A stretch of DNA of 64,000 nucleotides from Halomarina oriensis (lineage in GTDB: Archaea; Halobacteriota; Halobacteria; Halobacteriales; Haloarculaceae), in the NCBI RefSeq assembly GCF_009791395.1, contig NZ_WSZK01000018.1, positions 1 to 64,000 on the forward strand, written 5' to 3'. The notes under the pieces were generated by a model. It saw only the letters and a list, made by a program, of their open reading frames with translations. It had not been told where the DNA came from and made no database searches. Both the position numbers and the translations under genes were made by a program. Shown piece by piece: positions 11,388-60,604 of the stretch. Numbering within the stretch: position 1 is the stretch's first letter; every line of letters begins with the position of its first letter.

Positions 11388-11948
11388 TCAGTCCTCGTCG
11401 CTCTCCCACTCCTCGCGGAGCAGGCAGTACTGGACCATGTCGCGGTACTCACCACCGACGAACATGTCCCGTCGAGTACGGCCCTCCTCGGAGAAGCCGA
11501 GTGACTCCAGCAGGCCACGCGAGGCGTCGTTGAACGCGAACGCGCCCGCACCGATGGCGGGGTGGGCGTAGGTTCGGAAGCAGTAGTCCACGGCCAGCGC
11601 GACGGCCTCCCTCCCGTAGCCCTCGCCGTGGACCTCCTGAACGATACCGTAGCCGAGTTCGGGGCGTCGCCACGAGGCGTCCTCGACGGTGACGAAGCCG
11701 ATGGCTCGCGTCTCGCTCTCGGCGGGCGGCCCCGGCCCCGCGCCCTCCTCGTCGAGACAGACCGTGAACCGGTCGGCGTCGTCGTCACGCGGCCACTCCG
11801 ACTCCATCTCGCCGCGACTCGTCACCGGACTCCCGAGCGGCACCTTCAGTTCCGGGTTCGTCCGCATCCGCTGGAGCACCCGCATATCCTCCTCCTCGGT
11901 CGTCCGGAGCGTCACCCGCTCCCCGCGTGCGACTCGTGCGCCTGGCAT
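11388..11948 (-). CDS. GNAT-family N-acetyltransferase (RimJ/RimL-like)
   Basis: A 186-aa GCN5-type acetyltransferase that transfers acetyl from acetyl-CoA to an amine, perhaps a protein N-terminus. The family core is visible: GFVTVEDASW (beta 4), ELGYGIVQEVHGEGYGREAV (the acetyl-CoA pyrophosphate loop, here HGEGYG, about residue 120) and NDASRGLLESLGFSEEG (the C-terminal motif). The frame stays open far upstream, but the ATG at 11948 begins the conserved strand (RVARGERVTLRT). Upstream DNA is the palindromic element at 12005-12231, so the gene may be transcribed through or from it. The exact substrate is unknown. Confidence 0.86.
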   Translation of the reverse strand: MPGARVARGERVTLRTTEEEDMRVLQRMRTNPELKVPLGSPVTSRGEMESEWPRDDDADRFTVCLDEEGAGPGPPAESETRAIGFVTVEDASWRRPELGYGIVQEVHGEGYGREAVALAVDYCFRTYAHPAIGAGAFAFNDASRGLLESLGFSEEGRTRRDMFVGGEYRDMVQYCLLREEWESDED

Positions 11949-12004
11949 GGCAGAACCGAGCGTGGTCGGTGACAAGTGCGTTCGGGTGTGGCCGTGCGGT
12001 AGCG

Positions 12005-12231
12005 GTTCACCCATTCGACTGGACCGCGAGCGAGACGCGGAGCGTCGAACGAGCGGGGTGAGTGAGCCACCGAGCGGAGCGAGGTGGCGAGTGAACCTTT
12101 TGATCCCATTGCGAGATGCGGAGCGTCTCGCAGGCTCCCAGGTCCTTCGGACGCTGGGAGAGCTTTTATCCTCCGGGGTGAGTGAGCGCAGCGAACGAAC
12201 CCCGGCCGTGGATAAACGGTGGTGGGTGAAC
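12005..12231. repeat. Hairpin-dense palindromic intergenic element
   Basis: This 227-nt region is bounded by an 8-bp inverted repeat (GTTCACCC 12005-12012, GGGTGAAC 12224-12231) and filled with nested or adjacent dyads. They are GACGC/GCGTC (12034-12046), GCCACC/GGTGGC around an 11-nt GAGCGGAGCGA (12066-12088), and TGCGAGA/TCTCGCA (12110-12132). There is also a long stem CTCCCAG+GTCC/GGAC+CTGGGAG (12135-12160) and CCGGGGT/ACCCCGG centred on GAGCGCAGCGA (12173-12205). The last is itself enclosed by TTTATCC/GGATAAA (12165-12216). A 13-bp direct repeat CGGGGTGAGTGAG occurs at 12054 and 12174. No coding potential is convincing. It lies between two minus-strand genes and could be a mobile palindromic element or a structured RNA. 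Confidence 0.7.
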
Positions 12232-12237
12232 GGTCGT

Positions 12238-12717
12238 TTAGTAGGCTTCCACGAACGGCCCGCTGGTGACGGGTCGCCACTGGCAGTCCTGGCAGTCGAG
12301 GTCACGGCGTCGGCCGCCGTCGAACAGCGCACCCAGTCGGTACACCGGGTCGCGTGCGTCGTCGGTCGCGTCGGTGAGACAGAGGATGGTGATACCGAGC
12401 AGACCCTGAATCTCACAGCCGACGTCGGTCGTCTCCTGGAGGACGCGATAGGCACCGTCCTCGATGGCTTCCACGTCGTCGACGTGCCCCCACGGGTCGC
12501 CCCACCCGTCACCGGTCGAGACGGCGAGGGACTCCCCGCGGCCGTTACGGATGCGGACGCCCGCGTCGACGACGCTCCGGTCGGTCAGCGCCCGGACCTG
12601 TTCGTAGGTCGTCGACGAGACGGGGACCGTCGTCTGCCGGACCGGGCAGGGTCCGTAGGTGCTTCGCAGCGACGCGAGTTCGGCGCGAACGCGCTCGTAA
12701 CTCTCACCCCGATGCAT
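12238..12717 (-). CDS. Nudix-like protein with a degenerate Nudix box
   Basis: A 159-aa protein. Residues about 65-100 fit a Nudix fold: G-x5-E-x7-R is present (GHVDDVEAIEDGAYR), but the REUxEE core reads RVLQETT. One or two of the metal-binding glutamates are therefore replaced, and activity as a nucleoside-diphosphate hydrolase is doubtful. The C-terminus has DLDCQDCQW, a C-x2-C pair. The start at 12717 (MHRGESYERV) follows a TTTATAC box by 28 nt; the longer open frame upstream is not needed. It could be a sensor or a catalytically dead relative. Haloarchaeal proteins of this type are usually annotated hypothetical or Nudix. Confidence 0.72.
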   Translation of the reverse strand: MHRGESYERVRAELASLRSTYGPCPVRQTTVPVSSTTYEQVRALTDRSVVDAGVRIRNGRGESLAVSTGDGWGDPWGHVDDVEAIEDGAYRVLQETTDVGCEIQGLLGITILCLTDATDDARDPVYRLGALFDGGRRRDLDCQDCQWRPVTSGPFVEAY

Positions 12718-37450: not shown

Positions 37451-37512
37451 GTAGACTCGTGTGCCGTGCCGCGAGCGACCGTAGAGAGCGAGCGCAGCAA
37501 AAGGTGGGTGTT

Positions 37513-60491: not shown

Positions 60492-60604
60492 CGCGCTCTC
60501 CTGGGTTCCCACTCACTCACTCCGTTCGCTCGCGGGAACAGCGAGGAACGCTGAGCGCAGCGAAGCGTTCCTCGGGAAGTCGAGCGGTGGAACCGCGAGA
60601 CTTC
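60482..60604. repeat. Chain of four hairpins after spt5
   Basis: Consecutive dyads are AGAGCG/CGCTCT (60482-60499, over the spt5 stop) and GTTCCC/GGGAAC (60505-60539). The strongest is a 10-bp stem, GAGGAACGCT/AGCGTTCCTC, around an 11-nt centre GAGCGCAGCGA (60543-60573). The last is GAAGTC/GACTTC enclosing GCGGT/ACCGC (60576-60604). The 11-nt centre matches those inside the 12005-12231 element. The rest of the gap (60605-60848) has no gene I can support; a CTTTCGAC stretch about 27 nt before 60849 may be the promoter of the next gene. Confidence 0.7.

Follow-up and report, generated by a model that had tools for sequence, protein, structure and literature searches.

Transcription termination in Archaea needs a U-rich tract and does not strictly need a hairpin (PMC7515710). 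In Haloferax volcanii a T stretch terminates efficiently, at 95%, and 503 termination sites have hairpins upstream (PMC7237163). The element described here resembles those terminators in being intergenic, in having a T stretch after the stop codon, and in its upstream hairpins, which accompany about 500 of the mapped ends there, whereas a tandem-GA hairpin, a paired T/A-tract stem, a two-way composite and inserted modules do not appear in the available part of the report (PMC7237163). Bacterial bidirectional intrinsic terminators likewise lie between convergent genes and present a hairpin and then a T tract on at least one strand; they are built as A-stem-T, whereas the present unit is built as T-stem-A, with regular G.A mismatches and an archaeal host.

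Several families of short repeats and hairpins also invite comparison. REP/BIME sequences with their RAYTs are, like the copies described here, short intergenic palindromes in high copy number with a strand-specific fold and inverted pairs; the present element differs in that several rich carriers have no Y1 transposase, its arms covary, and it is coupled to T tracts and stop codons. The PATEs and SMRs of Haloquadratum walsbyi are, similarly, small palindromic haloarchaeal repeats without a transposase. PATEs derive from IS605-type ends, SMRs measure about 110 bp and have terminal inverted repeats, SMR-A inserts into palindromes of other elements as a twin hairpin does here, and in the available portion of their description neither is reported as a gene-end element (PMC3119063). 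The loops of our hairpins, GNA or GNNA with G-C closing pairs, are identical to those of the extraordinarily stable DNA mini-hairpins d(GCGNAGC) (Hirao, Yoshizawa; cited in PMC4686876), which are known from synthetic DNA chemistry and aptamer tails and not as a genomic element. No description of the tandem-GA motif was found in the open-licence literature.

Here we describe an array of hairpins in a 64,000-nucleotide stretch of the Halomarina oriensis genome (contig NZ_WSZK01000018.1, positions 1 to 64,000; hereafter the window). The array occupies an intergenic space of about 290 nt between two minus-strand genes (Table 1), and belongs to a modular element that lies just after genes across haloarchaea and has dozens of copies in this species. 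The initial annotation regarded it as a set of nested palindromes enclosed by inverted repeats. The outer 9-bp repeat is indeed present (12005-12013 / 12223-12231), but its role as a boundary is improbable, since about 1% of random windows contain an equally good repeat. A congener lacks it at the orthologous site, and a closed element bounded by GTTCACCC/GGGTGAAC was accordingly rejected. Conserved terminal inverted repeats with a target duplication mark MITEs, and PATEs or SMRs have either near-terminal palindromes related to IS605-type transposon ends or terminal inverted repeats. The array is instead a composite of definable modules, with functional edges near 12024 on the left and at the stop codon (12238-12240) on the right.

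Table 1. Modules of the window copy and the genes that flank it.
Feature	Position	Strand	Description
GNAT acetyltransferase gene	11388..11948	-	PF13302, E 1.1e-17; start 75 nt left of element
Left arm of outer inverted repeat	12005..12013		Judged outside element; absent at orthologous site
Tandem-GA hairpin 1	12024..12056	+	CCGC-GA-GC-GA-GACGC(GGA)GCGTC-GA-AC-GA-GCGG; a single step, GC against AC, is imperfect
Tandem-GA hairpin 2	12057..12097	+	GGT-GA-GT-GA-GCCACC-GA-GC(GGA)GC-GA-GGTGGC-GA-GT-GA-ACC; plus-strand fold
First T tract and GATCC	12097..12106	+	Consensus TTTT-GRTCC; 3' of hairpins
54-nt twin-hairpin insert	12107..12160	+	CATTGCGAGATGC(GGA)GCGTCTCGCA and GGCTCCCAGGTCC(TTC)GGACGCTGGGAG
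Second T tract	12161..12172	+	AGCTTTTATCCT; 5' arm of terminal stem; consensus AGnTTTT, partner AAA(A)nGT
Tandem-GA hairpin 3	12173..12205	+	CCGGGGT-GA-GT-GA-GC(GCA)GC-GA-AC-GA-ACCCCGG; within terminal stem; second centre GAGCGCAGCGA
Terminal stem, 3' arm	12209..12222	+	TGGATAAACGGTGG (consensus GCAAAAGGTGG); stem covaries
Facing gene	12238..12717	-	159-aa protein; stop codon abuts element

The facing protein shows a weak NUDIX-like match (PF00293, E 0.0048) that falls under the Pfam cut-off. Within the array, the two 11-nt centres noted earlier were located at 12072-12082 (GAGCGGAGCGA, inside hairpin 2) and 12184-12194, and the two copies of the direct repeat, at 12054 and 12174, agree exactly over 14 nt. 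Nested hairpins are present, and folding of 12001-12237 beats shuffled sequence on both strands (z -4.05 on plus, a value matched by 1 of 200 shuffles; z -3.50 on minus). The dyads exist, but several are stems with regular tandem G.A mismatches and not perfect stems. Because most stems are of this regular but imperfect kind, the claim that perfect stems are far denser here than in the rest of the window did not hold: the array has three perfect hairpins, and an equal or higher score is reached by 46 of 565 windows of that length.

The shared centre, GAGCGNAGCGA, is a hairpin tip of the form GA-[GC-GNA-GC]-GA, and the GARY tetranucleotides that flank it imply a hairpin in which stretches of one or two Watson-Crick pairs are separated by GA opposite GA. 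Tandem G.A pairs of the sheared type are favoured in YGAR contexts. The consensus reads CCGC-GA-RY-GA..GNA..GA-RY-GA-GCGG, Watson-Crick steps alternating with tandem G.A mismatches up to a closing GNA loop. Compensatory changes among relatives, whose absence would have counted against the initial annotation, are abundant. Among 193 distinct hairpins drawn from three families, the outer RY two-base step is fully Watson-Crick in 160, against 96 in the best of 2000 shuffles, and in the unconstrained inner arms 569 of 748 positions are paired, where no shuffle exceeded 423. In 59 aligned 27-mers, 97.5% of cells are paired, the covariation score is 0.316 (0.148 when shuffled, at most 0.098 when slid), and double changes number 55 against 17.8 in shuffles, a signal that collapses when the partners are slid. 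The outer CCGC/GCGG and the adjacent GA pairs were fixed by the search pattern and carry no weight as evidence; hairpin 1 fits this order-wide pattern (CCGCGARYGA..GARYGAGCGG) and so belongs to a class showing covariation. Independently of any pattern, GA/GA and TC/TC are the most frequent two-by-two mismatches in intergenic hairpins (16, against 2.65 in shuffles) of a 400-kb sample of the window genome, from which the density and gene-fraction statistics below were also taken. Since the tandem-GA architecture scores poorly in standard DNA folding, energy-based scans may miss elements that covariation reveals.

Attached to the tandem-GA hairpin is another covarying stem, TTTT-GRTCCAGC-TTTTGC...GCAAAAGGTGG. 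Read on the GA strand, the whole unit consists of the hairpin, TTTT-GRTCCAGN-TTTT, a variable hairpin and AAAAGGTGG, which usually adjoins the facing gene's stop codon directly. The polarity is pronounced: TTTT lies within 60 nt downstream of the hairpin in 88 of 107 copies and upstream in 3 of 107. In the terminal stem, the last part of the unit, position x of GTC[x]AG has its partner in position y of GT[y]G; the two form a pair in 74 of 75 copies (C-G 59, G-C 15), and the base preceding the T tract covaries too. Each strand thus has a T tract near the end of a flanking gene, one following the hairpins and the other being the complement of the A tract on the side of the facing gene, which belongs to the covarying stem in those 75 copies. 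In the window, 12209..12222 reads on the minus strand as a CCACC(G)TTTATCC tract directly after the facing gene's stop codon, its own stop-side tract being just TTT (CGTTTATCC). Within the Halomarina genus sample, none of 75 copies falls inside a gene. Convergent genes surround 34 of 69 copies (22% expected, p 5e-7) and divergent genes only 5 of 69 (27% expected); in 24 of 69 the left neighbour points away, so that the hairpin side receives no obvious gene transcript. In one haloarchaeal case the T/A stem comes after a tRNA gene, which points to transcription rather than translation.

BLAST of the array region returned related copies in its own genome and in congeners; a lack of other copies would have counted against the initial annotation. 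With the pattern CCGCGARYGA-N(3,25)-GARYGAGCGG, the window genome yields 20 copies and congeners as many as 54, the reversed control giving 0-1, and the density of GAGCGNAGCGA is 12-fold higher in intergenic DNA than within genes (400-kb sample). TGTA often precedes CCGCGAG, though not in all copies; REPs with RAYTs have a conserved tetranucleotide guide at this place, the foot of the hairpin. The hairpin is present in 203 of 293 Halobacteriales genomes, representing 61 of 87 genera, and the 164 genomes searched from the phylum's other orders gave just two single hits. At four loci, contig ends of the assembly fall within element copies beside near-identical genes, so part of the copies have probably been collapsed or lost. 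Outside haloarchaea the skeleton takes the form TTTTGGTCAAGCTTTT...AAAAGGTTG; at two loci of a 1-Mb genome from another order, read by eye, it apparently lies inside tRNA and RNase P-like RNA as an extra stem.

From these features of sequence and placement, we consider the array, on balance, probably a copy of a modular two-way transcription terminator dispersed in haloarchaeal intergenic regions, best read as an element that spreads or turns over quickly. Plus-strand transcripts arriving from the left would meet one or two tandem-GA hairpins and at once thereafter two T tracts (TTTT-GRTCCAGN-TTTT), and transcripts of the facing minus-strand gene would meet a T tract straight after the stop codon (CCACCTTTTGC; CCACCTTTT). 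In the long stem between the two sides, T tract pairs with A tract. The tandem-GA hairpin, presumably folding on the plus strand as nascent RNA, as displaced DNA or as both, may pause RNA polymerase or guard the 3' end, and the T tract would release the polymerase. What the data show directly is the structure (through covariation), the strand polarity, the position after stop codons, the spread through the order and the insertion relative to an orthologous empty site; termination, and the choice between RNA and DNA as the folding strand, are inferred. Archaeal termination, thought to need little beyond a T tract, would then gain a large testable set of structured two-way gene-end elements conserved across an order, and the extraordinarily stable GNA mini-hairpin a natural genomic use. 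A general terminator it is not, since the stop-side motif accompanies just some 2% of the genes in the 400-kb sample. Against the terminator reading itself, orthologous genes often have no element, and empty sites read by eye showed no T tract. The copies whose left neighbour points away, the DNA-type loops and the short TTT on the stop side of the window copy weigh against it as well. The low fraction of genes with the stop-side motif, together with the coming and going of the element between species, would also agree with a REP-like selfish reading.

According to that reading, which we regard as possible though rather doubtful, the array is a REP/BIME-like non-autonomous mobile repeat whose one-strand DNA hairpins are moved or copied by a transposase in trans, the T tracts being incidental or a preferred landing place. 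Copy numbers of 20-67 per genome under the strict pattern would suit such a repeat, as would strand-specific folding and the DNA-type GNA/GNNA loops (described in the available part of PMC4686876). So would presence and absence at orthologous gene ends: in a survey of ten gene ends, for which 64 downstream regions of congener orthologues were read, a strict scan found the hairpin at 22 of 64 sites, and inspection by eye added sites with variants and others that were empty. At the site orthologous to that of the window, one congener (G006, L259) has the same neighbours, with synteny retained on the GNAT side, and carries the element; a second (G007, L260) is without it.

Precise insertions of the twin hairpin also fit a mobile repeat. 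The window has GATCC-[54-nt twin hairpin]-AGCTTTTATCC and L259, at the corresponding place, GGTCC^AGCTTTTACC, the fixed target being GATCC^AGCTTTT in the window and GGTCC^AGCTTTT in L259, which has no insert; the twin hairpin of the window is a later insertion at the GTCC^AG point. It recurs about 18 times at the same target point in both orientations, and its second loop reads GAA on the minus strand, so that its two hairpins face opposite strands. Small hairpin modules here insert at a set position within a different hairpin element. Three loci have another type of twin hairpin (GCCAGA..TCTGGCTGCTAACCGAA..TTCGGTGATG) inserted between TTTTG and GTCCAG, once as a tandem pair.

Other observations tell against a mobile repeat. 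The Y1 transposase (PF01797; IS200/IS605/RAYT-type) is absent in G000, G003, G005, G007, G027 and G055; neither the window genome nor the carriers of 50-62 copies (G003, G027, G055) has one, which makes RAYT-type movement unlikely in these carriers, and mobilisation by RAYT/IS200-IS605 was rejected on this ground. The arms differ by compensatory changes and are not near-identical, and hairpins vary between species at a single orthologous site (L309, L310). No target duplication was identified, the flanks of occupied and empty sites being too diverged to reveal one. A scan of a plasmid collection gave no match and one of IMG/VR 56 scattered matches; a plasmid or viral origin was set aside.

Which strand folds, and as which nucleic acid, bears on the remaining alternatives. 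On the plus (GA) strand, G.T wobbles outnumber A.C oppositions by 48 to 18 (p 0.0003, an optimistic value, as are the other p-values, because the hairpin sequences share phylogeny), and this excess indicates that the GA strand is the one that folds. RNA folding energies are -10.0 and -9.7 for the GA strand against -6.0 and -3.0 for the complements, and -18.4 kcal/mol on plus against -14.0 on minus for hairpin 3. Four-base loops are GNYA in 19 cases and GNRA in 3, and among hairpins with three-base loops the closing c(GNA)g or its complement is found in 11 of 51 between genes against 11 of 284 within genes; GNA and GNYA loops, as opposed to the RNA-favoured GNRA, fit folded DNA better than RNA. 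Standard DNA parameters gave little stability and did not separate the strands, as they omit the stability of GNA loops and tandem GA.

One reading, which we think unlikely, is a single-stranded DNA 'GA zipper', with tandem sheared G.A pairs every four bases and a c(GNA)g or c(GNNA)g mini-hairpin loop, that serves haloarchaea genome-wide as a functional gene-end signal on the non-template strand and spreads without a Y1 transposase. The loop types and the enrichment between convergent genes would also agree with a DNA-structure or protein-binding site (a supercoiling sink, or a replication or nucleoid boundary), where a protein recognises the GA strand folded as single-stranded DNA and termination is not directly involved. 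We find this improbable, since it leaves unexplained the tight coupling to one-strand T tracts and stop codons, the standard parameters predict little stability, and a cruciform would require the TC.TC strand to fold too.

Very unlikely, finally, is a small non-coding RNA gene or a cis-regulatory 3' UTR RNA whose fold controls mRNA stability: the strong RNA fold, the covariation and a position that, for convergent pairs, would fall in the left gene's 3' UTR agree with it, but no gene reads in from the left in a third of copies, GNRA loops are avoided, and a search of Rfam 15 with the window and 14 loci returned no family at gathering score, on which basis identity with a known RNA family was rejected. 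The structured RNA and REP/BIME-like repeat proposed in the initial annotation each fit in part, to copies that are intergenic genome-wide, compensated, dispersed and polymorphic between species; both missed the tandem-GA arms, the union of T/A-tract stem and stop codon in one unit, and the inserted twin hairpin. The nucleoid-protein binding site that it also proposed gained no support.

Other arrangements of the same modules were also seen. At 37467-37512 the window contains a shrunken copy, in which a tandem-GA hairpin is joined directly to the GCAAAAGGTGG tail beside a stop codon, as though its central part were lost, and at 60513-60541 (minus strand) a solitary tandem-GA hairpin, CCCGCGAGCGAACGGAGTGAGTGAGTGGG, right after the end of a plus-strand gene. 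Three other haloarchaea (L331, L332, L333) carry two or three tandem copies of a gene 3' end with its T/A-tract stem.
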